Source of the DNA: Acrocarpospora catenulata
Lineage (GTDB): Bacteria > Actinomycetota > Actinomycetes > Streptosporangiales > Streptosporangiaceae
NCBI RefSeq assembly: GCF_018476525.1
Contig: NZ_JAHCST010000011.1
Location: 62,001 to 126,000 of the forward strand
DNA: 64,000 bases
Direction: 5' to 3'
The translations under genes were made by a program, and so were the position numbers. The notes under the pieces are model-generated. The model made no database searches. It was not told where the DNA came from and saw nothing but the letters and a program-made list of their open reading frames with translations. Of the stretch, positions 1,552-14,651 are shown piece by piece (within the stretch, counting starts at the first letter, position 1; every line of letters starts with the position of its first letter).

Positions 1552-4500
1552 GTGAGCTCGCTGATTGTCGTGCCCGTGCATTTAGATGCGCTTTGTCTGG
1601 AACGGTCCACTGATGTCAGTGGCCCCACGGCCGACTTCACCCGGCTGCCGTACGCGGCGGAGGGCGGCGACCAGCACGCGGACCAGCCGTACCTGAGTGA
1701 CATCGTGGTTCCCGAGCCGTTCGAGGACCAGGATTTCCGGCTCAAGGCGGGCGTTCACCTGCACTGGGCGCTACCGGATGGGCTGACCCGGATGGTGCAG
1801 CAGGACGACGGGCAGACCTCGATTCCCGCGGTGCCCGACCGGTGGCTGGTGACGCGGAGCCGGGACGGGGTGGTCGAGGCGCAGTGGGTGGTGGAGAGCG
1901 ACGTGTTCTCCCAGGAGAACGTGGGCGCGATCGCCTATCCGCTGTCGGACGGCCCGGAGACGTACCGCCGACTCGGGCGGCAGGTGCCGCTCAATGTCTG
2001 GAGCCCGACCACCGACCCCGCCCAGCGTCTGCCGCTGCTCACCGCGGTCGGTTACGGCGAGCCCGCGTTCGCCGCCTACTACCCGAACTGTCACAGCGTT
2101 TTCGGTCTGCACGACCCTGCCTACCCGGGCGTTCCCCCGGCGGGGCTCAGCTATGACGTGGTCGGCTGGTACCAGGACCTGTCCAGCGACCCGCTGACCA
2201 GGCTCCAGCCGGACCCGGACCAGACCCTGACCGAAAAGCTCGAAGAGCAGTTCGATTGGAACGTGACAGAAGATGGCCCTTTCGAGCGGATCGTCTGCGT
2301 TGCCCGGCTCACCTTCCAGCCCGCCGAGGACACCACCAGCCCGCTCCTGTCCGACGACACCGGCGTCTGGGTCGGCAACACCGCCACCGAGGCCCTCGCC
2401 GCCCACCTGGGCGCGGTCCTCCCCGCCACCACCCCGGCCGAGGCCGAGCACCTGCTGGAGGCGCTCTCCTTCGCCGAGGAGCTGGAATCCCAGCAGCTGG
2501 ACCTGGGGCTCACCCTCGCCGAGAACCGGCACGCCGCGACCTTCCGCAGCCTGCCCGGCGGCACGCTCTGGACCATCGTCCGCGAGGACGAACCGGGCGA
2601 CAGCAGCGCCGAGGAACGGCAGGCCCGCGAGAACCTGACCCTGCCCCCGGACGCCTGCGACCTCCTCGACGAGCTCAACCGCCTCCAGTCCGCCTACGAC
2701 AACGAGGCCGCACGGCTGACCGGCCTGCGCGAGCGGCTCTTCGCCGACTGGCACAAGTACCTGCTCTGCGCCTACCCGTACGACACCACCCGGGACGGCT
2801 ACCCCGACCCCGACCTGGTCAAGTTCTTCATCGAACGCCAGCTGCGGATCCTCCAGCGCCGCTCGTACGCCAACGGCGAGCGCAGCGAGATCATCTCGAT
2901 GAGGCGCAGCCGGCTGGAGTGGGTGCTCCGGCAGGTCGACACCGAGACCGCGCGGGCGAGCTTCGTGGTCAAACCGGTGGCCGCGCCGCAGTACTACCTG
3001 CCCAACGAGCCCGTCGTGCTGTTCACCGGCGACGCCGCCACCCCCACCGACCGGCACGGCCAGGACGGCGCCCAGTCCCCGGACGGCCTGCTGCGCTGCC
3101 ACGCCGTCACCGACCCCGGACCGGCCTGGGACGCGGGGACGGCGGGCGACCTGCGCGATGCCGTGCTCCCGCTGGCCGAGGCCCAGGTCTGGCGGCACGC
3201 GCCCTGGCACCCGGTGCTGCTCCACTGGCAGGTCGAGTTCTTCCCGTCCGGCCAGGGCGGCAACCTGTCGCCGAACGACCGCACGTACGACGAGGACTAC
3301 GTCACCCGCACCTACGAGCTGGCCTCCGGCGAGGTGGAGCTGACGGTCATCCCCGGCCAGGACGCCAACGACAAGGCCGCCAACGTCTACAGCGGGGTCA
3401 CCCTGCTCTCCCCCGCCGCCCGCCCGGTGCTCTCCGCCCGGGTGCTCAGGTACCTGGAGGGCGCCCTGCTCCCCCGGTACGGCGAGAACATGGACGACCC
3501 GGAGAAGGTGTTCCAGCGGTACCTGGACCAGCCCGCCCCTGAGCAGCGCCTGGTCACGCTGATCGAGGCGTACCGGCATCTGGCCGCCAACGAGGGCGGC
3601 AACCTGGCCGGTGTGCTCGGCGGGTTCAACGACGCCCTGCTGATGCGGAAGCTGGTCCGCCAGCTGCCGGTGGACGACCCGCTGGGCTTCCGGCGCTACC
3701 AGGACTTCGCCGGCGAGGTGAAGTGGGCGATCGGCAACGAGACCACGCACGCGCCGCAGCCGCTGAGCGACTTCGCCCCGATCCGGGCGGGCGCGATGCG
3801 GGTGCTCGCCCTGCGGCTGGTGGACAACTTCGGGGTCGGCCACGACGTGGACGTGCGCCTGCCCGGCACCACCACCGAGCTGACGGTGCCCGACCATCCC
3901 GGCTGGGTGGCGATGCCGCCCCGGCTGGCCCAGCCGACCCGCATCTCGGCCCGCTGGCTGGACGCCCGCTACGACCGCAGGGAGAGCAACAGCACCCCCG
4001 AGTCGACACCGGTCTGCGGCTGGCTGCTGCCGGACAACCTGGACGACGGGGTGGCCGTGTTCGCCGCGGACGGGCGGATGATGGGCGCGCTCTACGCCGT
4101 ACCCGACCTGGGGGATCCGACGCTGGCGCAGTGGCGCGGCCTGCCCGGGGCGGGCTGGGTCGGGACCGGGGAGATCCCCGACGAGCACCTGCGCGCGGTG
4201 GTGGCCAGGCTCCGCACGGCCGGTCCCGACCGGCTGGGCGAGTTCGTGGCGGCGCTGAGCGACGCGCTGGACGCGATCGAGCCCGAGGAGCAGGCGCAGC
4301 ACCGGGCCCGCGCGATCCTCACCGGCCGCCCGCTGGCCGTGGTCCGGGCCGCGATCAACCTGGAGTTGCAGGGTGTGCCGGCCGTGCACCAGGACTGGAA
4401 CGTGTTCCGCCAGGACCTGGCCAGGACCAGCCGGGAGAGCAACGACTTCCCGCTGGTACGGTTCCCGGTCCGGATCGGCTCCCACCACCATCTGGACGAC

Positions 4501-4941
4501 GGCGTGGTCGGCTACTGGGTGGAGGGCGAATCCCCCCAGAAGTTCCACAGCATCCTGGACGCCGAGCCGATCCTCCAGGCCATCGACGAGGCGCCGCACG
4601 TGCTCACCCTGCTGCTGGACCCGCGCGGCAAGGTCCACGTGACCAGCGGCGTGCTGCCGTGCAAGACCCTGGACCTGCCGGCCCAGTACCACGCCGAGTC
4701 GGTGTCCGCGCTGGAGTCCGACTTCTTCACCGCCCCCGTGCTGGCCGCGCAGGGCGACTTCGGCCTGCCGCTGCCGGATGAGCCCGGTTTCGCCTGGTCC
4801 TGGCGGGAGCGGACGGGCGCGGACTGGGCCCAGCTGGACACCGCGCCCACCGCACTCGACGCGCAGTTCCCGCCCGAACTGTCCCTCCGCGAGGGCTGGC
4901 TGGCCCTCCGTCCTTACGCCCCTCCTGCAAGGAATGCCTGA
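1552..4941 (+). CDS. Large uncharacterised protein (1129 aa), first gene of six-gene operon
   Basis: The GTG at 1552 is preceded by GAGGGG at good spacing; a TTG at 1537 in the same frame is an alternative. The product has no signal peptide or membrane segment. It opens VSSLIVVPVHLDALCL and has a block FRLKAGVHLHWALPDGL near residue 70, a helical, charged stretch in the middle (about residues 380-470, with LTGLRERLFADWHKYLL), and mixed alpha/beta sequence afterwards. I recognise it as a conserved hypothetical type but no characterised domain. It overlaps the next gene by TGATG, implying translational coupling. Its size and its neighbours (fibre-like protein, DUF6603-like protein) suggest a structural or scaffold role, which is inference only. 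Confidence 0.8.
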   Translation: MSSLIVVPVHLDALCLERSTDVSGPTADFTRLPYAAEGGDQHADQPYLSDIVVPEPFEDQDFRLKAGVHLHWALPDGLTRMVQQDDGQTSIPAVPDRWLVTRSRDGVVEAQWVVESDVFSQENVGAIAYPLSDGPETYRRLGRQVPLNVWSPTTDPAQRLPLLTAVGYGEPAFAAYYPNCHSVFGLHDPAYPGVPPAGLSYDVVGWYQDLSSDPLTRLQPDPDQTLTEKLEEQFDWNVTEDGPFERIVCVARLTFQPAEDTTSPLLSDDTGVWVGNTATEALAAHLGAVLPATTPAEAEHLLEALSFAEELESQQLDLGLTLAENRHAATFRSLPGGTLWTIVREDEPGDSSAEERQARENLTLPPDACDLLDELNRLQSAYDNEAARLTGLRERLFADWHKYLLCAYPYDTTRDGYPDPDLVKFFIERQLRILQRRSYANGERSEIISMRRSRLEWVLRQVDTETARASFVVKPVAAPQYYLPNEPVVLFTGDAATPTDRHGQDGAQSPDGLLRCHAVTDPGPAWDAGTAGDLRDAVLPLAEAQVWRHAPWHPVLLHWQVEFFPSGQGGNLSPNDRTYDEDYVTRTYELASGEVELTVIPGQDANDKAANVYSGVTLLSPAARPVLSARVLRYLEGALLPRYGENMDDPEKVFQRYLDQPAPEQRLVTLIEAYRHLAANEGGNLAGVLGGFNDALLMRKLVRQLPVDDPLGFRRYQDFAGEVKWAIGNETTHAPQPLSDFAPIRAGAMRVLALRLVDNFGVGHDVDVRLPGTTTELTVPDHPGWVAMPPRLAQPTRISARWLDARYDRRESNSTPESTPVCGWLLPDNLDDGVAVFAADGRMMGALYAVPDLGDPTLAQWRGLPGAGWVGTGEIPDEHLRAVVARLRTAGPDRLGEFVAALSDALDAIEPEEQAQHRARAILTGRPLAVVRAAINLELQGVPAVHQDWNVFRQDLARTSRESNDFPLVRFPVRIGSHHHLDDGVVGYWVEGESPQKFHSILDAEPILQAIDEAPHVLTLLLDPRGKVHVTSGVLPCKTLDLPAQYHAESVSALESDFFTAPVLAAQGDFGLPLPDEPGFAWSWRERTGADWAQLDTAPTALDAQFPPELSLREGWLALRPYAPPARNA

Positions 4942-5126
4942 TGTCACCGCAGATATCGCTTAGTTTCTCGGTCCCGGAGACCAACCTCATCCTGGAAGCG
5001 CTGGGCAACCTGCCGTACGTGCGGGTGTGCGACCTGATCACGCGGATCCACCAGCAGGCGGAACCCCAACTGGCGGCCGAGACGGCGCTGCCGCGGCCGG
5101 CCCTCGTGGACGGGGTGGGCGCGTGA
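4941..5126 (+). CDS. Small protein (61 aa), resembles small virion-module proteins of phages
   Basis: The ATG overlaps the preceding stop (TGATG) and the stop overlaps the next GTG (GTGA), so this small gene is embedded in a coupled array and is very likely translated. The sequence begins MSPQISLSFSVPETNLIL and continues with EALGNLPYVRVCDLITRI. From memory, short phage proteins encoded near tail or capsid genes share the pattern V-N-x-I-L-x-A-L-G-x-L-P-Y followed by L-I-x-K-I-x-x-Q. This resemblance is by eye. The neighbouring fibre-like protein fits a virion-derived module. Confidence 0.7.
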   Translation: MSPQISLSFSVPETNLILEALGNLPYVRVCDLITRIHQQAEPQLAAETALPRPALVDGVGA

Positions 5127-7468
5127 CTCTGGTCCTGCACTGGCATCTGGACGCGGTCACCGACTCCAGCCGCGCGATCGACGACTCGGGCAACCTGCTC
5201 AACGGGCAGGTGGTGGGCGACCCGAAGAACGTGCCCGACCCCCGGTTCGGCAGTTGCCTGGCCTTCGACGGCGTCGGGGACGCGGTGATCATCCAGGGCG
5301 CCCGCGAGCTGGAGCTGACCTCGTACACGGTGGAGTTCTGGGTAAGGCCGGCGGACCAGCGGAACACCCGGTTGATCACCGGCGCGTTCGGCAACGTCGG
5401 GATCACCAACGAGGGCATCCTGGCGCACCGTTTCGGCGGGACCGACCAGTTCGCCCACCGCCTGGCCCTGGACAGCTGGCAGCACGTCGCGGTGTGCAAC
5501 GACGGCGAGACCGCCCGGGTCTACTACGACGGCTCGCCGGTCGCCGAAGGGCCGGGCCTGCGGACCGACCTGATCAAGGACGTCGAGCTGGCGGTGGGCC
5601 GCGAGGGCGGGAGCGAGGGCTACTTCGAAGGGCGGCTCGCCCACCTGCGGATCTACGACGGCGCTCTGTCGGAGGCCGAGATCCGCCGGGACATGGCCGA
5701 GGACGAGGCGGCGCTGGCCGCGTTCGTCCGTAGCCACCCGCTGGACTTCCTCCTCTCCGACGAGCACCAGCAGCCGGTGCTCCGGATCGAGGACGACCAG
5801 GACGGTCAGGAGATGACGCTCCGGCTGACCAACGGCTCCCGGCAGGACCTGCTGATGGCCCCGGGCGAGCGGGACCAGGACTACCAGCTGGCTCTGCGCT
5901 TCCGCCCCGGCACCCTGGCCGACCTGCCGGAACCGGGGATCGCCGCGGACGGCTGGACGCTGCGCCGGACCTCCGACGCCTCCGGCACGACGCTCTACCT
6001 GCGCTCGGCGGGCCCGTTCACCCTCTCCACCGGGGCCGACCTGATCCTGCCGCTGACCGGTCTCAAGGCGGACGGCACCGGCGGCACCCGGGGGACCCGG
6101 GTCGAGCTGCAGTACCGGCTGCTCAGATACGCCGGGGAGTCGGACGAGCTGTCGGGCTCGCGCATGCAGTTCCTGGAGGTGGTGAACGCCCGGGGCAGCA
6201 AGGACGCGCCGATCACCGCCGGTTTCGTGGGCGGCAACGCCGTCCTCAACGATAACGTCACACCGAACACCCTCCGGATCCGCCTCTCCAACCTCTCCCG
6301 CGACCGCTCAATCCCACTAAATCCGGATTCGGCGTTCACGGTGACGTTCGACGTCCAGGAGCAGCACGAGACCCAGCTCGGCGCCCTCACGGAAGCGGGC
6401 AAGGGCACCCAGGTCCATCTGACCGCCACCGGCGCCCCCGGCATGGACTCCGGCTGGCACGTCGCCGACCAGCACCTCGGCCAGGAGCCGGTCTGGACGG
6501 TACGACCCCAGCAGGCCACCGCCATCGCCCCCGACGGCTGGATCGACCTGACCCTCACCCCGGTGGTGGCCCTGTCCGCCCTCGGCCACGCCGACATCGT
6601 CATCGGCTACCAGAACATCCCCGGGTACGCCGACGGCTACCTCAAGGTCACCGCGGAACGCTCCCCCCTGATCCCCGCCGGATCCAACGTCGGCATCGGC
6701 ACCACGGCCCCCGAGGCCAAGCTCCACATCATGCACGTCCCGCAGGACATGAACGGCAACGCCCTGATCATCGGGCCGACCGGCGGCGCCAACCTGCGCA
6801 TGGGCTACCACCAGAACTACAGCTGGATCCAGTCCCACGGCGTCCGCCCACTGTCCATCAACCCGATCGTCAACAACGTCGGCATCGGCACCACCGCCCC
6901 AGAAGGCCGCCTCCAGATCCTGCACGGCCCGCAGGACCCCAACGGCAACGCCCTCATCATCGGCCCGACCGGCGGCGCCAACCTGCGTATCGGTTACCAC
7001 CAGAACTACAGCTGGATCCAGTCCCACGGACTCCGCCCGCTGCTGATCAACGCCGTCGGCAACAACGTCGGCCTCGGCACCGCCAACACCACGGCCAAGC
7101 TCACCATCGGCGCCGACAACACCCACCTCCAGCTCCGCCGCGAGGCGTCCGCCGGGGGCGGCAACCTGGTCTTCCTGGAGATCTACCAGGCCCAGCAGTC
7201 CACCCAGGTCAACCCGAGCCTGCGCTTCACCAGCGGGACCGCCTCGCACCGCATCGAGGCCCGCCCCGACGGCCTCCACCTCAAGGTCGGCGACCCGGCC
7301 CAGGACACCTACACCAAGCTCACCGCCGGCGACACCACCGTGGGCTCGCTGACCGCCACCACCGTCACCGTCGGCGGTACCACCCTCAACGCCACCGACT
7401 TCGCCAACCTCCGCCGCCTGCTGGACCACCCGAGCTCGGGCGGACTGTTCGGGTTCCTCTTCCCCTGA
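5123..7468 (+). CDS. LamG-domain protein with C-terminal tail-fibre-type repeats (781 aa)
   Basis: The start is the GTG at 5123, which overlaps the preceding stop as GTGA; an upstream in-frame start at 5027 would overlap the small gene completely and is rejected. Residues 1-215 form a LamG/concanavalin-like sandwich (LAFDGVGDAVIIQG, YTVEFWVRP, WQHVAVCNDG, YYDGSPV, LAHLRIYDGALSEAEI). Residues 220-510 are beta-rich without a known match. Two 63-aa tandem repeats and a partial third follow, each opening NVGIGTTAPE or NVGLGT, the pattern of phage tail fibres and trimeric surface fibres. No signal peptide, membrane anchor or chaperone domain is visible. A carbohydrate- or surface-binding role is the likeliest reading. 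Confidence 0.85.
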   Translation: MTLVLHWHLDAVTDSSRAIDDSGNLLNGQVVGDPKNVPDPRFGSCLAFDGVGDAVIIQGARELELTSYTVEFWVRPADQRNTRLITGAFGNVGITNEGILAHRFGGTDQFAHRLALDSWQHVAVCNDGETARVYYDGSPVAEGPGLRTDLIKDVELAVGREGGSEGYFEGRLAHLRIYDGALSEAEIRRDMAEDEAALAAFVRSHPLDFLLSDEHQQPVLRIEDDQDGQEMTLRLTNGSRQDLLMAPGERDQDYQLALRFRPGTLADLPEPGIAADGWTLRRTSDASGTTLYLRSAGPFTLSTGADLILPLTGLKADGTGGTRGTRVELQYRLLRYAGESDELSGSRMQFLEVVNARGSKDAPITAGFVGGNAVLNDNVTPNTLRIRLSNLSRDRSIPLNPDSAFTVTFDVQEQHETQLGALTEAGKGTQVHLTATGAPGMDSGWHVADQHLGQEPVWTVRPQQATAIAPDGWIDLTLTPVVALSALGHADIVIGYQNIPGYADGYLKVTAERSPLIPAGSNVGIGTTAPEAKLHIMHVPQDMNGNALIIGPTGGANLRMGYHQNYSWIQSHGVRPLSINPIVNNVGIGTTAPEGRLQILHGPQDPNGNALIIGPTGGANLRIGYHQNYSWIQSHGLRPLLINAVGNNVGLGTANTTAKLTIGADNTHLQLRREASAGGGNLVFLEIYQAQQSTQVNPSLRFTSGTASHRIEARPDGLHLKVGDPAQDTYTKLTAGDTTVGSLTATTVTVGGTTLNATDFANLRRLLDHPSSGGLFGFLFP
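6686..7130 (+). repeat. Tandem 189-bp (63-aa) fibre repeats, two full plus one partial
   Basis: Copies start at 6686, 6875 and 7064, each exactly 189 bp apart and in frame. The first two share NGNALIIGPTGGANLR and YHQNYSWIQSHG almost unchanged, while the third keeps only the opening NVGLGT and then diverges. The exact spacing and high identity show recent duplication or homogenisation. Confidence 0.85.
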
Positions 7469-7484
7469 TCGCCGGGAGACGCGC

Positions 7485-8687
7485 ATGCCACAGACCAAGC
7501 GCAAGGCCAAGGAGCAGGACGACGTCGAGCTGGCCCACCGCAACAAGATCGCGAAGCAGAAGGCCTTCGGCAAGGAACTGCTGAAGGTGCTCGAGAAGCG
7601 GGATGAGTGGCTCGGCAAGCACAAACGCTCGGACGGCAATCGGGGCGACGGCACGTTCTACATCCATTACGTCTCGGTGGGCCAGGGTGACTGCACGCTC
7701 ATGACCACCCCCGACGGCCGGGTCATCCTGGTGGACTGCGGTTCCAGCGAGCATCCCGCCACCGGCGACTTCTACGAGCGGCTGAAGCAGAAGCTGCTCC
7801 AGAAGGTGTTCCTCAAGCACGACCGGGTCATCGACGTGATCGTGCTCACCCACCCCGACAAGGACCACCACAACGCGTTGAAAAAGGCGCTGATCCAGGC
7901 CGGGGTCACCACCATCCACGCCGTCTACTGCTCGGGCTCGATCGGGGACTACAAGCACACGGCCTGGCACCTGTACAAGACGATCCCCGACTTCCGGATC
8001 GTGCGGGACGTCGTCATGAACGACGATCCCGACCGGAGCGACGACGGCTCGACCACGCTCAAGCCGGCCAGCAACAGCAAAAAGGAGTTCTCCCACACCC
8101 GCCCGCCCGACTCCGAGAACGGTTACGACGTGAACGTCATCACCGACGTGGGCATCCGCATCGTGGCCGAGGACAATTGCGACATCACCATCATCGCGGC
8201 GGGCGTCGAGGACAAGTACGACGAAGAGGACGAGGGCACCGACATCAACCGCGCCAGCATCGTCCTGCACGTGAAAGCGTTCGAGGAGAACCTGCTCCTG
8301 ATGGGCGACGGCACGGCGGGCACCGAGCGGTTCCTCATGGCGACCCAGGAGGAACTGCTCGGCAATACGTCGTCGATCCGGATAGGCCACCACGGCAGCA
8401 CGGTCACCTCCTCGCTCCAGGAGTTCGTGGAGATGGTCAGGGCCCAGATCGCCGTCGTCAGCGCCGACGCCGCGGCCTCGCCGAGCAACTGGCGGCACCC
8501 CCACTGGGAGGCGCTCGACCGCTACGTGGCGGTGATGGACAGGGACGTCGAAGAACTCGACACGCCGAACACGGTCAACGCCTACAACTACGAAGACGAC
8601 GACGGATACAAGCCGAAGAACATCAAGTACGACCTGGACGCCACCGAGGACACCAAGGACCTGGCCCACTTCTATGAGGCGACATGA
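7485..8687 (+). CDS. Metallo-beta-lactamase-fold hydrolase, ComEC/Rec2 C-domain-like (400 aa)
   Basis: The ATG follows a GGGAGA site 16 bp after the fibre gene. A basic, lysine-rich N-terminus (residues 1-45) precedes an MBL fold: VGQGDCTLM and VDCGSSEHP (about residues 66-87), the metal motif HPDKDHH (about 123-129), MGDG near 270, and RIGHHGSTVTSS near 302, followed by AVVSADAAASPSNWRHPH. This is the arrangement of the extracellular nuclease-like domain of ComEC and of stand-alone relatives. No secretion signal or membrane segment is present, so it is probably cytosolic. Active-site residues are intact. It is coupled to the next gene by ATGA. It may be a nuclease or phosphodiesterase serving the operon. 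Confidence 0.85.
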   Translation: MPQTKRKAKEQDDVELAHRNKIAKQKAFGKELLKVLEKRDEWLGKHKRSDGNRGDGTFYIHYVSVGQGDCTLMTTPDGRVILVDCGSSEHPATGDFYERLKQKLLQKVFLKHDRVIDVIVLTHPDKDHHNALKKALIQAGVTTIHAVYCSGSIGDYKHTAWHLYKTIPDFRIVRDVVMNDDPDRSDDGSTTLKPASNSKKEFSHTRPPDSENGYDVNVITDVGIRIVAEDNCDITIIAAGVEDKYDEEDEGTDINRASIVLHVKAFEENLLLMGDGTAGTERFLMATQEELLGNTSSIRIGHHGSTVTSSLQEFVEMVRAQIAVVSADAAASPSNWRHPHWEALDRYVAVMDRDVEELDTPNTVNAYNYEDDDGYKPKNIKYDLDATEDTKDLAHFYEAT

Positions 8688-11600
8688 CCCCTGACGACAT
8701 CCGGGTCACCGGCGGCCTGCTCGACCTCGACGTGACCGGCCTGGTCGACCCCGCCTTCTTCCCCACCGGCAGGCTCACCCTGACCGGGGCCGTACGCACG
8801 GAGGCCGCCGGCACGGTCACCGTCACCGGCACGGGGTCGGGCCTGCCGTACCCGGGCATGGCCGTGACCGCCGTCTTCGAGCCGGACGGCGACGACCTGA
8901 CCGCCACGGTGACCGCGCGGGCCGCCGCCGACTGGACCATGGGCACCGCCTTCCCCGACCTCGGGGAAGGCCTGATGGCCCGGCTGACCTTCACCTCGGC
9001 CACGCTCACGCTGACCTCCGGCGCGGAGCGCATGGGCGTGGAGGGCGTGCTCGACCAGGACCGCCCGCCCCTCTTCGACCTGCTGGTGCCGGTGGCGGAA
9101 CACCGGCTGCGCGGCAGCGTCGGCATGGTGTCCGGCCTGCCCGACACCGACCTGGACACCTCCACCGTGCCGGACGTCATCCTGTACGGCCCGTCGGGCG
9201 CGAGCCTGAACATGGGCCTGTTCACCATGTCCGAGCTGCGCTACGAGATCTACGGCGAACCCCAGTTCAGCTACGACATCCTCGACTGGGAGGTCCTCTC
9301 CCACGTCGAGTTCACCGGCGCGATCCAGGTGGGCGGGCGGCGGGTGCTGATCAGCGCCGAGGTGCGCGGCAGGGAGGCCGTGCAGTTCAGCGCCGACTTC
9401 AGCGACCTCGGGCCGCTCGGCGTGGACACCGTCGCCGCCCTCGCCAACCTGGAGTCCCTGCCGACCGCCCTCGGGCCCCAGGTCAGCCTGCCGGTCCTGC
9501 TGAACGATGTGACGTTCACGGTGGACTCCAGCGGGCGGGTCCCGAACATCAGCCTCACCCTCGCCGCCGCCGAGACCTGGACGGTCGGCGGGGTCACCTT
9601 CAGCGACATCCAGCTGACCTTCGCCGTCAGCGGGCCCATGTCCGAGGAACCCGAAGTGACCGGCATGGTCTACGGCGAGGTGACCCTGGGCGAGGCGGGG
9701 CGGCTGGAGGCGTTCGGCATCTTCGGCGACGAGACGAGGCTGGCGATCGGCCTGCCGGACCCGAACGGCGGGAACTGGGACGAGGACGCGGAGCTTCCGG
9801 TGCTCCGGCTGGACGAGCTGTACACGTTCGTCACCGGCGACTCCGCCCGCCACCTGCCGGTCATGGAGGTCACCCAGCTCCATCTGGAACTCACGCTGCC
9901 GCGCAGGTTCAGCGGCGTCGTCGAGGTGAACGGCGACTGGACGCTCATCGAGCACGTCGAGCTGCGCACCGTCCACTTCCAGCTGGACCAAGATGACTCG
10001 GGCACCACCTTCGTAGGCCGGGGACACTTCGTGATCGGCGGCGTACCCGTCATCGTCGAAGTGGACCACTTCCCCGACCCGACCCCGCATTGGCGGCTGT
10101 CAGGCGCGACCCGTACGGACGCCAGAATCCCGATCGGCCGTCTCTTCGACGACCTCACCACCCGGTACGGCGGCTTCGCCCTGCCCGAGCCGCTGGCCGG
10201 TCTGGTCCTCAGCAAGCTCAGCGCGGAGGCCACCACCGGCGACGACGGAGGGCTCCGCCTGGCCGGGCGCGCCACGTTCCCCGTGGACGGCCGCCCGGTG
10301 GTCTTCGATCTCCGCATGGACACGGTGGCCCGGCTGCTGACCACCGCCCTGGAGGTGACGCTCGGCGACGACGCGAAGCTCTCCTTCGGCCTGGGCTTCC
10401 GGGGCGCGCTCATGGTGGGCTACTACGCCCACACCCCTGGCGGCACGCTCCCCACCGTCAAGGAGCTGGTGGCCGCGATCTCGCCGCAGGCCGGCGCGTA
10501 CGTGCCGGACGGCCTGGTCGTGGACCTGCGGGACGCGTACTTCGCCGAGCAGGAGGGACGGCGGCTGGTCGGAGCCGACCTGACCGCGACCATCGACCTG
10601 TCGAAGCTGCCGCTGGCCGGCCCGATGCTGCCGCCCGGTCCCGTGGGGTTCGCGCCACTGCGGATGATCTCGGTGTCGGGAGCCCTGGACGCGGCGGCCG
10701 TCAACGGGCTGCTGCCGTCGGCCGTCCCTCCCCTGCCGGGCGAACTCCCGGCGGGCGGTTTCGTCATTGACGGGAAGCTGCTGCTCGGGCCGTTGGAGGA
10801 GAGCCTTCGGCTGCCGGTGGACGCCCCTCCCCCGGCCGGCTCCCCTGCCTCTCCGGCGCCGTCGGAGAACGTGCTCTGGTACAAGGTGCAGCGGGGGTTC
10901 GGGCCCGTGCACATCGCGCGGATCGGGCTGGCCTACCGGGAGGGGCGGCTGTTCGTCCTGGTGGACGCGGCGCTGACGGTGGCCGGGCTGACGCTGTCGC
11001 TCAACGGGCTGGCGGCGGGCCTCTCGTTGTCGGACCCGTTGAGCACGCCGACCTTCGATCTGGCGGGGCTGGGGATCTCCTACACCGGGGGTCCGCTGGA
11101 GGTCACCGGGGCGTTCCTGCACGGAACGCTGGAAGTGGACGGAGTCGAGCGGGACTCCTTCAACGGGCTGGCCACCCTCAAGACGGCAGACCTGTCGATC
11201 GCGGCGCTGGGCTCGTACGTGCAGCTGCCGAGCGGGCCGTCGCTGTTCGTGTACGCGTTCGTGGACTACCCGCTGGGCGGGCCCTCCTTCTTCTATGTAC
11301 GAGGACTGGCCGCCGGTTTCGGATACAACCGCAGGGTCGAGTTGCCCCCGGTAGAGCAGGTGGCTGGATTCCCGCTGGTAGCCGAGGCCACGGGGCGGAT
11401 GGAGCGCACCGACCTGGCCGGGGAAGTGGCCCGGCTCTCCGATGCCCTGACGGTCTCCGAAGGCGACTACTTCCTGGCCGTCGGCGTGCACTTCACCACG
11501 TACGAGATGATCGACTCGTTCCTGCTGCTGAGCGCCGTCTTCGGGCACCGGTTCGCGCTCCAGCTGGTCGGTCTGTCGACGCTGACGCTACCTGCGGAGT

Positions 11601-12904
11601 CCTCGGGGAAGACGCCGATCGCCCAGGTGCAGATCGCGCTGCGGGCCACCCTCGTGCCGGAGGACGGGTACTTCTCGCTGGTCGCGCGGCTGACGCCGGG
11701 ATCGTTCGTGCTCTCCCGGGACTGTGTGCTGACCGGCGGTTTCGCGTTCGCGTCCTGGTTCGGAGAGCAGCATTCGGGCGACTTCGTACTGACCGCAGGC
11801 GGCTACCACCCCCGCTTCCCGGTCCCGGCGCACTACCCGCAAGTACCCCGGCTGGCCTTCAACTGGAAGGTCGACCGGTCACTGACGTTGAAGGGGACCG
11901 CGTACTACGCGCTGACCCCGTCGGCGTTGATGGCGGGGGGCTCCCTCAACGCGACCTGGCACGACGGGTCACTCAAGGCGTGGTTCGACGCCTCGATGGA
12001 CTTCCTCATCGGATGGCATCCCTACCACTACGACGCCTCCTTCCACATCAGCGTCGGTGCCTCCTACACTTTCCACTTCTTCGGCACCCACACCATCACC
12101 GCCCACGTCGGCGCGGACGTGCAACTGTGGGGACCGGAGTTCAGCGGCAGGGCGCACATCGACCTCAGCGTGGTGTCCTTCACCATCTCCTTCGGCGCAC
12201 GGGCACAACAGAAGCCGACCGTGTCATGGTCGGAGGTGCGGAACGCGCTGCTGCCGTCCGACCTGGTCACCGTCGTGCTGGGCGGGGGCGCGCTGCGGCC
12301 GGGCGAGGGCGAGGACCTGGGCCTGGTGGATCCGGGACGGCTGACGCTCACCACCGACTCGGTGATCCCGTCCACCCGGGCGCTGGCGGGCACGAACGAG
12401 CAACAGGGCACCGCGTTCGGGGTCGCCCCAACCGGAGACACCTCGGTGACCGCCACCCACCGCGTGACGATCACCCGCGACGGCGAGCCCGCCGAGCACC
12501 TGTTCACCTTCGAACCGGTACGGAAGGACCTCCCGTTCGCCCTCTGGGGCACCTCGGCGACTCTGTCCCTGAACCACCCCCAGCTGGTCAGCGACCTGCT
12601 CACCGGCTACACGATCACCCCACTCCCACCGATCGAACCGGGTCAACCGGCCACCATCGACGTGGCCGACCTGCAGGCCACCCCGCTGGTGCCGCCGCAG
12701 GAAGCCATCTGGTGGACCGAACCCGACCCGTTCATCCCCGCCGACGGCGACCCCGCCGACCTGATCACCACCAGCCTGACCGCCTCCGACGTGGCGGAGA
12801 CCAGGGCGGCCCTGCTCGACGCGGTCCTGCCGGGAACCACCGTCGACCTGGCCGGATTCACCGTGAACGAATTCTTCGAACTGCCAGAGGTGGCATATGC
12901 CTGA
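8684..12904 (+). CDS. Giant beta-rich protein, DUF6603-like (1406 aa)
   Basis: The start ATG overlaps the preceding stop as ATGA. The whole sequence is made of short alternating strands (patterns such as VTVTGTGSGLPYPG, LTLTSGAERMGVEGVL) with no signal peptide. Around residues 870-905 it has FFYVRGLAAGFGYNRRVELP, which I associate with the DUF6603 family; that assignment is from memory. The C-terminal 250 residues are less repetitive. The length and strand-rich composition suggest a long beta-solenoid or lipid-transfer-like rod, but no function is known to me. The stop overlaps the next gene by 8 bp. Confidence 0.7.
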   Translation: MTPDDIRVTGGLLDLDVTGLVDPAFFPTGRLTLTGAVRTEAAGTVTVTGTGSGLPYPGMAVTAVFEPDGDDLTATVTARAAADWTMGTAFPDLGEGLMARLTFTSATLTLTSGAERMGVEGVLDQDRPPLFDLLVPVAEHRLRGSVGMVSGLPDTDLDTSTVPDVILYGPSGASLNMGLFTMSELRYEIYGEPQFSYDILDWEVLSHVEFTGAIQVGGRRVLISAEVRGREAVQFSADFSDLGPLGVDTVAALANLESLPTALGPQVSLPVLLNDVTFTVDSSGRVPNISLTLAAAETWTVGGVTFSDIQLTFAVSGPMSEEPEVTGMVYGEVTLGEAGRLEAFGIFGDETRLAIGLPDPNGGNWDEDAELPVLRLDELYTFVTGDSARHLPVMEVTQLHLELTLPRRFSGVVEVNGDWTLIEHVELRTVHFQLDQDDSGTTFVGRGHFVIGGVPVIVEVDHFPDPTPHWRLSGATRTDARIPIGRLFDDLTTRYGGFALPEPLAGLVLSKLSAEATTGDDGGLRLAGRATFPVDGRPVVFDLRMDTVARLLTTALEVTLGDDAKLSFGLGFRGALMVGYYAHTPGGTLPTVKELVAAISPQAGAYVPDGLVVDLRDAYFAEQEGRRLVGADLTATIDLSKLPLAGPMLPPGPVGFAPLRMISVSGALDAAAVNGLLPSAVPPLPGELPAGGFVIDGKLLLGPLEESLRLPVDAPPPAGSPASPAPSENVLWYKVQRGFGPVHIARIGLAYREGRLFVLVDAALTVAGLTLSLNGLAAGLSLSDPLSTPTFDLAGLGISYTGGPLEVTGAFLHGTLEVDGVERDSFNGLATLKTADLSIAALGSYVQLPSGPSLFVYAFVDYPLGGPSFFYVRGLAAGFGYNRRVELPPVEQVAGFPLVAEATGRMERTDLAGEVARLSDALTVSEGDYFLAVGVHFTTYEMIDSFLLLSAVFGHRFALQLVGLSTLTLPAESSGKTPIAQVQIALRATLVPEDGYFSLVARLTPGSFVLSRDCVLTGGFAFASWFGEQHSGDFVLTAGGYHPRFPVPAHYPQVPRLAFNWKVDRSLTLKGTAYYALTPSALMAGGSLNATWHDGSLKAWFDASMDFLIGWHPYHYDASFHISVGASYTFHFFGTHTITAHVGADVQLWGPEFSGRAHIDLSVVSFTISFGARAQQKPTVSWSEVRNALLPSDLVTVVLGGGALRPGEGEDLGLVDPGRLTLTTDSVIPSTRALAGTNEQQGTAFGVAPTGDTSVTATHRVTITRDGEPAEHLFTFEPVRKDLPFALWGTSATLSLNHPQLVSDLLTGYTITPLPPIEPGQPATIDVADLQATPLVPPQEAIWWTEPDPFIPADGDPADLITTSLTASDVAETRAALLDAVLPGTTVDLAGFTVNEFFELPEVAYA

Positions 12905-14651
12905 CCAGATCTCCTTCCTGGACTTCCGGCAACCCGCCCTGCCGGCCGGGGACTACGCGATCTCGGCCACCACCGAGATCGAGCTGGATCCGGAGGTGTT
13001 CACGGCCTCCCGTACCTTCACGGTCGGGTCGGACCGGCACCGGCTGGCGCCCGAGGACATCCGCGCGGTCTTCCCCCCGCCCGGCAGCCTCGGCGACCAC
13101 GCCGCCGTGCTGCCGCACCTGGTGCTCAGCCGCGCCACCCTGCCGTGGGAGCGGGGGGAGCTCCCCTGGCTGGCGCTGCTCCTGTTCACCCCGGAGGACC
13201 GGCCGGAGCCCCGGACCACCACGGCGGGCGCGCTGGGCGTGCCGCTGGAGGGCCACGAGTCCCCGGACGACCAGGTGACCGTCATCGACGTGCCCCGCGC
13301 GCTGCTGCCCGACCAGGCGGACCTGCCCTACCTCGCCCACGTACGGCAGGGCGAGGAGGAGAACGCGGTGCTGATCTGCGAGCGGTTGCCCGCGCCCGGC
13401 GCCACCAGCACGGTGCACCTGGTCTCGCTGGAAGGCGCGTACGACAAACCCGAGGGCCTGATCACCCTGGTCACCCTGCACAGCTGGCGGTTCGCCTGTC
13501 TCGACCCCGGCCAGACCTTCTCCTACCTGGTCCGCGACCTGGCCAGGGGCGGGCAGACCTTCCGCCTTCCCGACACCGGGGAACCCCGCGCGGACGCGTT
13601 CCTGGCCCAGGGATTCGTCCCGTTCCCGCACCGGCTCCGGCAGGGCGGCGACACGGTCTCCTGGTACCGGGGTCCGTTCCTGACCGGCCCGGCGGGCGAG
13701 AGCCCGGAACTGCCCCCCGTCCGTACGTCCGACGGGTTGCTCAGGTTCCATCCCGGGGTGGGCATGCTGGAGACCGGGTACGCGGCGGCCTGGCAGCTCG
13801 GGCGGCTGCTCGCGCTGGCCGCGCCGGACTTCGCCACCGCGCTGTTCGACTGGAAGCGGGCCAGGGCCAAGCGGCGGCTGCGGGCGGAACGGGAGCCCGC
13901 CGAGGGGTATCCGCTGGCGGTGGCGGAGATCGACGTGACCCCGCCGGAGCCGGTGGTGAGCTGGCTGACCGGGCTGTCCCGGCTGCACGGGGTGCCGTTC
14001 TGCTACCTGGTGCCCGACGAGCGGCTGCTGCCGGTGGAGACGATCCGGTTCCTCCGGCTGGACCAGCGGTGGGTGCACTGCCTGGTGGACGGCGCGTACA
14101 GCATCGGGCGGCTCACCCCCGCCGACGCCCTGCTGGACCGCGAATCCCCGGTCCCGGTGGACTCGCCGCCGCTGAGCGGCGCGCTGATCCGCTCCGACGT
14201 GATTACCGGGTATCCCGGCCTGCTCATCGACGCGTACGCGGACCAGGACGGCACCCGCCCGCTCCCGTTGGTCCGCCGCGAAATCATTTCCGGAAATATC
14301 CTGCTCTGTCTGTTTGAAGGGGAGCTCCAGCGCCTGGACCTGCACCAGCGGCCGGAGACCCTGCACTTCGCCGTGGAACTCCCCGAAGCCGTGGGACCCC
14401 CCGAACCTGGGGAACTTCCCGAAACCGAAGGTGGTGAGGGGACCTTCACCAAGGCCCTCCGCGACCGGGACGACCCCCTCACCGGCACACTCGCCCCATT
14501 CCGCAAGATCCCGATCGCCGACCTGGCCGCCCAGATGGCCATCGCACAGGGCCTGCCCGAGATCGGCTCGGGAGCTTTCGCCCTGCGGATGATGGAGAGC
14601 GCGGAACGGGTCACCTTCCTGACCCCGTTATTTCCTGAGGCCGGCGACTGA
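12897..14651 (+). CDS. Uncharacterised protein (584 aa), last gene of six-gene operon
   Basis: The ATG lies inside the end of the preceding gene (8-bp overlap), so it is translated from the same message. The product begins MPDQISFLDFRQPALPAGDY, has no signal peptide, and contains a helical block AAWQLGRLLALAAPDFATA followed by a basic stretch FDWKRARAKRRLR near residue 320. Further on are LRLDQRWVHCLVDGAYSIGR and SGALIRSDVITGYPGL. I recognise the latter patterns only as belonging to conserved proteins of unknown function. The gene is followed one base later by a convergent gene, marking the end of the operon. Confidence 0.75.
   Translation: MPDQISFLDFRQPALPAGDYAISATTEIELDPEVFTASRTFTVGSDRHRLAPEDIRAVFPPPGSLGDHAAVLPHLVLSRATLPWERGELPWLALLLFTPEDRPEPRTTTAGALGVPLEGHESPDDQVTVIDVPRALLPDQADLPYLAHVRQGEEENAVLICERLPAPGATSTVHLVSLEGAYDKPEGLITLVTLHSWRFACLDPGQTFSYLVRDLARGGQTFRLPDTGEPRADAFLAQGFVPFPHRLRQGGDTVSWYRGPFLTGPAGESPELPPVRTSDGLLRFHPGVGMLETGYAAAWQLGRLLALAAPDFATALFDWKRARAKRRLRAEREPAEGYPLAVAEIDVTPPEPVVSWLTGLSRLHGVPFCYLVPDERLLPVETIRFLRLDQRWVHCLVDGAYSIGRLTPADALLDRESPVPVDSPPLSGALIRSDVITGYPGLLIDAYADQDGTRPLPLVRREIISGNILLCLFEGELQRLDLHQRPETLHFAVELPEAVGPPEPGELPETEGGEGTFTKALRDRDDPLTGTLAPFRKIPIADLAAQMAIAQGLPEIGSGAFALRMMESAERVTFLTPLFPEAGD

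Follow-up and report, generated by a model that had tools for sequence, protein, structure and literature searches.

A DUF6603 operon of Acrocarpospora catenulata with an exchangeable enzyme gene, a candidate modular enzyme carrier

A stretch of 64,000 nucleotides from the genome of Acrocarpospora catenulata (the window; contig 13 of the 10.3-Mb genome) contains an operon of six genes, whose products are called P1 to P6 here. P4 is a predicted enzyme with a metallo-beta-lactamase (MBL) fold, and P5 is a DUF6603 protein. The comparison of related loci indicates that the gene just upstream of the DUF6603 gene is a slot for exchangeable enzymes beside a constant core, and that the enzyme is exchanged as one unit with the first approximately 500 residues of P5. 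We tentatively propose, with somewhat less than even confidence, that the operon encodes a modular enzyme carrier, in which the N-terminal part of P5 would dock the cognate enzyme onto a constant carrier that bears fibres.

Gene order and the enzyme slot upstream of DUF6603

We compared 79 loci, which were drawn from searches, mostly best-scoring first, and are not a random sample. Genes were called with our own script (the annotation was used for L070) and labelled with hidden Markov models (HMMs) built from our own alignments. The family search contributed 40 fetched regions, two of which (L115 and L116) were dropped as matching L009 and L010. DUF6603 was found by these HMMs in 75 loci and was missing from L056, L060, L071, and L104.

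The loci have operons of three types. The 16 type A operons have the order P1-P2-P3-enzyme-DUF6603-P6, with P1 cut by the end of the stretch in several of them. This order, in which P3 is the LamG and fibre protein, is present at 15 of the 79 loci; the sixteenth (L125) lacks P2 and P6, has a 2.1-kb gap after its DUF6603 gene, and is possibly a decaying copy. Type B operons (28 loci) are arranged as DUF6603-P6-P1, with P1 present in all 28 and a gene labelled as the type B fibre somewhere in 16. In the 28 type C operons, DUF6603 is followed by a P6-like gene, and two further families often come next. In three loci, the stretch ends behind DUF6603. A gene of the P6 superfamily comes after DUF6603 in 71 of the 72 loci with a called downstream gene: P6 or its type C homologue is directly next in 67, and stands behind one gene encoding approximately 390 residues in four (L135, L138, L142, and L145, all type C); L125 has none. 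In one genome (G034), three DUF6603 operons coexist (L041, L042, and L043), of which two belong to type A and the third to type B. Six type B loci (L059, L126, L127, L128, L129, and L144) encode DUF6603 proteins of approximately 3070–3250 residues with a long N-terminal part; in that of L059, Pfam names the DUF6603 domain only. A first tree of 64 rows was built with a length filter that had removed the window and some of the type A rows. In a second DUF6603 tree of 75 rows, calculated by a quick method and including them, the window sits in a 16-row type A clade with a Shimodaira–Hasegawa-like approximate likelihood ratio test (SH-aLRT) support of 100.

A same-strand gene not more than 200 bp upstream of DUF6603 is present in 57 loci. 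Assigned by Pfam match, cluster or motif, these genes include 13 lactamases of group c9, six lactamases of group c11, five M64, four trypsin-like, three M14, two S8, two galactose-oxidase-like, and two PhoD-like proteins, together with one tyrosinase, one PLD, one WD40, and one protein recognised only by an HExxH motif. Five c11 members were assigned by clustering and the sixth (L124) by a Pfam Lactamase_B match just below the cut-off; the L124 protein also matches the c9 model with an E-value of 4.1e-11. The trypsin-like assignment is weak, with a Trypsin_2 match of E 0.0019 in L141 and cluster membership in the others, and a homologue beside the slot gene of L049 matches Trypsin above the cut-off. 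One of the PhoD-like proteins (L063) is under the Pfam cut-off. The motif in L113 (HECMH) is weak evidence, since 15 of the 680 proteins of these loci contain HExxH. A single supported clade of 11 type C proteins in the DUF6603 tree is accompanied by six families of slot enzymes. The original prediction for this operon had included lipid or nucleic-acid handling among the possible functions; this is weakened because the slot of relatives is occupied by unrelated enzymes, including peptidases, tyrosinase, and galactose-oxidase-like or PLD proteins.

Co-variation of the enzyme with the N-terminal part of P5

The type A operons L117 and L119 encode P1, P2, P3, and P6 proteins that are 90–95% identical, whereas their enzymes share 39% identity. 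The DNA identity of 92.8% extends to a point slightly beyond P3. The P5 proteins are mostly 40–71% identical up to approximately residue 500 (one 25-residue bin has 88% and one 24%), and 80–100% identical in the bins shown after that; P6 is 90% identical. The blastn match of the two loci, 91.5% overall, restarts near residue 288 of P5, inside the moderately similar part.

For 15 type A operons (L125 was left out), the pairwise identity of P5 residues 1–500 was regressed on the identities of P5 residues 731–1210, P6, and P1. The residual was 0.114 higher in pairs with enzymes of the same class than in pairs with different classes, and one of 5000 label permutations gave a value as high; the permutations ignore the tree, and the covariates stand in for relatedness. 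Control tests were null for P5 residues 731–1210 (524 of 2000 permutations), P3 (1986 of 2000), and P6 (958 of 2000). Among the ten c9 operons, the identity of the enzymes and that of P5 residues 1–500 had a partial correlation of 0.85, which was reached in none of 5000 permutations. A smaller same-class difference was present elsewhere in P5, for example in residues 1201–1300 (0.53 versus 0.42).

The 11-member type C group shows a similar pattern. Raw identities of residues 1–400, uncorrected for relatedness, were 0.55–0.57 in the five pairs with the same enzyme and 0.25–0.29 in the 50 pairs with different ones, where the M64-related L143 and L135 were counted as different classes. In the constant part, too, the same-enzyme pairs were somewhat more similar (for example, 0.75 against 0.68).

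The operon in the window and its proteins

The original prediction described six overlapping or abutting genes, and the gene check of the window showed exactly this arrangement: all six are intact, lie on the plus strand, and are separated by -1, -4, +16, -4, and -8 bp. The unit would be accidental if its genes were rarely neighbours elsewhere; they were found as constant neighbours across Actinomycetota. The DUF6603-P6-P1 part also occurs in a Bacillota plasmid. Since the order recurs in many genomes and dN/dS (the ratio of nonsynonymous to synonymous substitution rates) is 0.27–0.64 in two pairs of related type A operons, the operon is confirmed as real and intact, and not accidental. The genome of A. 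catenulata has one DUF6603 gene. Only LamG, the ComEC-type MBL fold, and DUF6603 are recognisable in the operon, and the Pfam scan gave no match for genes 1, 2, and 6.

P5 (8684..12904, plus strand, 1406 residues) is a clear member of the family, with a Pfam score of 465 bits against a gathering score of 27 for residues 735–1209. This domain (10886..12310, plus strand) is the constant part of the protein. The N-terminal approximately 520 residues (8684..10243, plus strand; the end is approximate and was mapped from L117 and L119) co-vary with the enzyme and form the proposed adaptor. P5 had been called strand-rich before, which fits the strand-like alternation of its hydrophobicity (z of 7.1 versus shuffles). 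The alternation is weaker in P3 (z of 2.7) and absent from P1 and P6. A search of solved structures with the P5 sequence gave a best E-value of 0.69 and nothing credible, as did searches with P6, P1, and DUF6603 alignments. Pfam gives DUF6603 (PF20248) as a family of unknown function, to which the present comparison adds its place in an operon, the slot for enzymes, and an N-terminus linked to the enzyme. A text search of literature that covered few subscription papers and no preprints returned no paper naming DUF6603, PF20248, or IPR046538.

P6 (12897..14651, plus strand, 584 residues) overlaps P5 by 8 bp and comes after DUF6603 in all three operon types; the type C gene that follows DUF6603 is a homologue of P6 from types A and B (hhalign probability 97.7, E 2.3e-12). 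P1 (1552..4941, plus strand, 1129 residues) belongs to no known family, leads the type A operons, and comes after DUF6603-P6 in type B. No relation was detected by hhalign between P1 and the fourth gene of type C, P6 and P1, the type B fibre and P3, or the type B fibre and the fourth gene of type C.

P3 (5123..7468, plus strand, 781 residues) has a LamG domain near its N-terminus (LamG_3, 70.2 bits), which has relatives among solved structures, and NVGIGTT-type fibre repeats near its C-terminus. These features support the fibre-like binder of the original prediction. Plasmid matches of P3 span only about a quarter of the protein, around LamG. The small P2 (4941..5126, plus strand, 61 residues) was seen only in type A operons; it is conserved across six aligned copies, and out of 100 genomes two contain it, each having type A operons. 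Its one phage match (E 0.01) was set aside as uninformative, as it begins outside annotated genes, between co-chaperonin and terminase genes.

A crude hydropathy scan of the N-termini, which is no signal-peptide predictor, agrees with the earlier statement that the proteins have no signal peptides. By the same scan, a hydrophobic stretch lies within the first 50 residues in 13 of the 48 rows of the P1 family; the N-terminus of P1 in the window is VSSLIVVPVHLDAL.

The enzyme P4 and its leader

P4 (7485..8687, plus strand, 400 residues) occupies the slot in the window. Its Pfam match to Lactamase_B is weak (23.0 bits, cut-off 22.7), but it carries THPDKDH and HHGS, which fit the pattern (S/T)HxDxDH plus HHGS, the metal-binding motifs of ComEC-type MBL-fold hydrolases. 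P4 is probably such a hydrolase, acting on nucleic acid or another phosphodiester, and the nuclease-like enzyme of the original prediction is supported to this extent. Among known hydrolases of this type, ComEC/Rec2, Avs1a, LmuA, and 6A-MBL are closest to P4, which matches the models of the defence lactamases weakly: 64.7 bits for LmuA (the best match in PADLOC, which matched gene 4 only and whose table has no cut-off for it), 45.5 bits for 6A-MBL, and 43.4 bits for Avs1a. The last two are far below the curated NCBIfam cut-offs of 220 and 420 bits. Unlike these proteins, P4 is a standalone enzyme with a basic leader, and in relatives other enzymes replace it at the same place.

The leader (7485..7658, plus strand) precedes the lactamase core. 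Leaders of 58–85 residues are present in ten of the 11 type A c9 enzymes; in L118, no core start was found by the pattern used. They are mostly rich in lysine and arginine near the start, often resembling MPxKRKR. The pattern K[KR]x[KR], which was picked after the leaders had been seen, occurs within the first 40 residues of eight of the 11 type A c9 enzymes and of seven of 733 other proteins from the same loci with at least 100 residues. The leader of P4 in the window contains KRK and lacks K[KR]x[KR]. The two type B c9 enzymes start directly at the core, as do the c11 N-termini shown. The c9 leader may serve as a loading tag, may bind nucleic acid as a tail, or may be a signal similar to a eukaryotic nuclear localisation signal.

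Distribution and genomic context

Relatives from the Streptosporangiaceae genera Microbispora, Herbidospora, and Nonomuraea carry the same operon. Searches detected DUF6603 in 13 of 60 relatives, in 12 of 396 genomes from the phylum, and in 63 of 297 from the family (the genome of A. catenulata is counted in each), and in none of 14 control genomes. P6 and P1 were detected in seven and six of the same 60 relatives, all among the 13 with DUF6603. On plasmids, P5, P6, and P1 have relatives in Streptomyces, Embleya, and Paenibacillus; for P5, the plasmid records add Paraburkholderia. P5 had no match in 50,697 phage records, and scans of viral contigs with patterns that reach only fairly close relatives found none of P1, P5, or P6.

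Two plasmids carry further genes of note. In a Paenibacillus polymyxa plasmid (L070:1-2452), a gene annotated as phage baseplate assembly protein V is followed by pentapeptide-repeat, nuclease, and ankyrin genes, and this stretch ends approximately 9 kb upstream of the DUF6603 operon. On a Streptomyces plasmid, a type B operon has CATRA conflict-system and CHAT-domain genes in its vicinity (L072:1098-6154).

Seven genes flanking the operon encode an acyl-CoA dehydrogenase, an HxlR regulator, two thiolases, a methyltransferase, a ROK protein, and a protein without match. The earlier claim that the window lacks phage genes holds for these seven, families having been scanned to about 20.8 kb only. 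Each of the four congeners searched has the right flank (HxlR, thiolase). The stretches around that flank, two of them shortened by contig ends, yielded no gene of the operon; P2 is absent from all four congeners, and two carry other DUF6603 genes. In one congener (L103), both flanks are on one contig with approximately 5.3 kb of other sequence between them. The operon therefore occupies a variable site, and the data fit gain and loss alike. Just upstream of the operon, three tandem tRNA genes (Leu-CAG, Leu-GAG, and Gln-TTG) lie on the minus strand at 832-1077; the equivalent stretch of L103 yielded no tRNA.

Proposed mechanism and alternative explanations

Based on the exchange of enzymes and the co-varying part of P5, a function of the operon can be proposed. 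P5, P6, and P1 would be constant scaffold proteins, and P3, with the small P2, would form a fibre or binding module. The enzyme encoded just upstream of P5, in the window a ComEC-type MBL-fold hydrolase with a basic leader, would be the exchangeable cargo. The N-terminal approximately 500 residues of P5 would serve as a dedicated adaptor that is swapped together with the enzyme, and their role as its docking or shielding part would be the simplest mechanism. The fibre would bind a cell surface or polymer, and release would need no signal peptide, lysis being one possible route. Physical docking, a single assembled complex, fibre binding, release, and the target are what we infer from the gene comparisons. 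The assembled particle or delivery device that was originally suggested may exist and would fit the cassette exchange. Overall, the original interpretation is supported in part.

Effector-adaptor modules of secretion and polymorphic toxin systems combine an exchangeable enzyme with a co-changing protein part on a constant apparatus. The operon is like them in its variable enzyme and co-varying neighbour part on a constant core. Unlike in secretion systems, family scans found no homology to a secretion apparatus, and unlike in polymorphic toxin systems, the type A enzyme stands directly between P3 and DUF6603, with no small immunity gene.

Several observations weigh against the proposed carrier. 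Sixteen of the 57 close upstream genes are without identification. The (S/T)HxDxDH pattern is missing in three of the 13 c9 and three of the six c11 lactamases, which may mean that some of the slot proteins are altered or lack activity. A close upstream gene is missing from many type B operons, and cargo is thus not always visible. P1 has no relation detectable by hhalign to the third gene of type C, which indicates that the constant part differs between the types. In a Paenibacillus sonchi plasmid (L071:9912-15263), homologues of P6 and P1 adjoin in a record without a DUF6603 match. Neither a signal peptide, by the crude scan, nor a secretion gene accounts for export. Furthermore, the enzyme and the N-terminus of P5 are adjacent, so their co-variation could be linkage.

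The operon could instead be an intracellular conflict or anti-phage system, in which DUF6603, P6, and P1 would act jointly as a sensor or control complex, with the N-terminus of P5 holding an enzyme effector inactive until infection. The patchy distribution, the variable effector beside a constant core, the lack of signal peptides in the crude scan, and the weak resemblance of the MBL enzyme to LmuA, Avs1a, and 6A-MBL agree with such a system. However, P4 was the only protein to match defence models, and known anti-phage systems (Avs1, 6A-MBL, Lamassu) gave no match above a curated cut-off. To our knowledge, tyrosinase, galactose-oxidase-like, and carboxypeptidase genes, LamG, and fibre parts are unusual in anti-phage or conflict systems. 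We consider this explanation rather unlikely.

Recombination between neighbours, in which tracts that bring a new enzyme also carry adjacent P5 DNA, would involve no binding. The adjacency of the enzyme and the N-terminus of P5 speaks for it, as does the edge of the type A tract, which lies in P5 approximately 240 residues before the start of the Pfam domain. However, P3 is equally adjacent and had no such effect in the permutation test, and the difference between L117 and L119 stops at the end of P3. As the exchange does not reach P3, the neighbour on the opposite side of the enzyme, plain linkage is less likely. Moreover, type C proteins change near the start of the domain, which in L140 begins at residue 427 by the DUF6603 HMM. 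Recombination of this kind is quite improbable as the sole cause. Alternatively, the operon could serve the tailoring or export of a natural product, a secreted polymer or a spore coat, and its enzyme would modify the large proteins or the product. This reading could account for the tyrosinase, galactose-oxidase-like, and peptidase genes in the slot and for LamG and the fibre repeats in P3; the operon is without biosynthetic genes, the crude scan gave no export signals, and we assign this explanation little probability.

Extracellular contractile injection systems and phage tails are like the operon in having a fibre-like protein and, possibly, leader-tagged cargo. A remnant or relative of either is nevertheless highly improbable, and phage origin was rejected: beside the fibre-like repeats of P3, its weak PHROGs matches to tail and virion proteins through LamG, and the weak PHROGs match between P4 and a tail protein that contains a lactamase stretch stand the absence of sheath, tube, baseplate, and ATPase families from the six proteins and the seven flanking genes (Pfam; family-level scans) and the negative phage and viral-contig searches described above, the patterns of which reach fairly close relatives only.

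Implications for the DUF6603 family

The modular enzyme carrier may be extended to a bolder reading, which we regard as unlikely. The operons would encode undescribed non-viral fibre-bearing machines, loaded through adaptors with interchangeable enzymes, released onto other cells, and spread over Actinomycetota, Bacillota, and Pseudomonadota. Given the leader of the type A c9 enzymes, which resembles a loading tag or a nuclear localisation signal, some targets of such machines could be eukaryotic soil competitors or predators.

The comparison gives DUF6603, P6, and P1, which are large, conserved, and of unknown function, a testable role as the constant parts of an enzyme-swapping system. It provides a functional hypothesis for PF20248 and shows which genes to study together. 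If the docking is true, the operons would represent a new class of modular enzyme carrier, with natural enzyme-adaptor pairs at hand.

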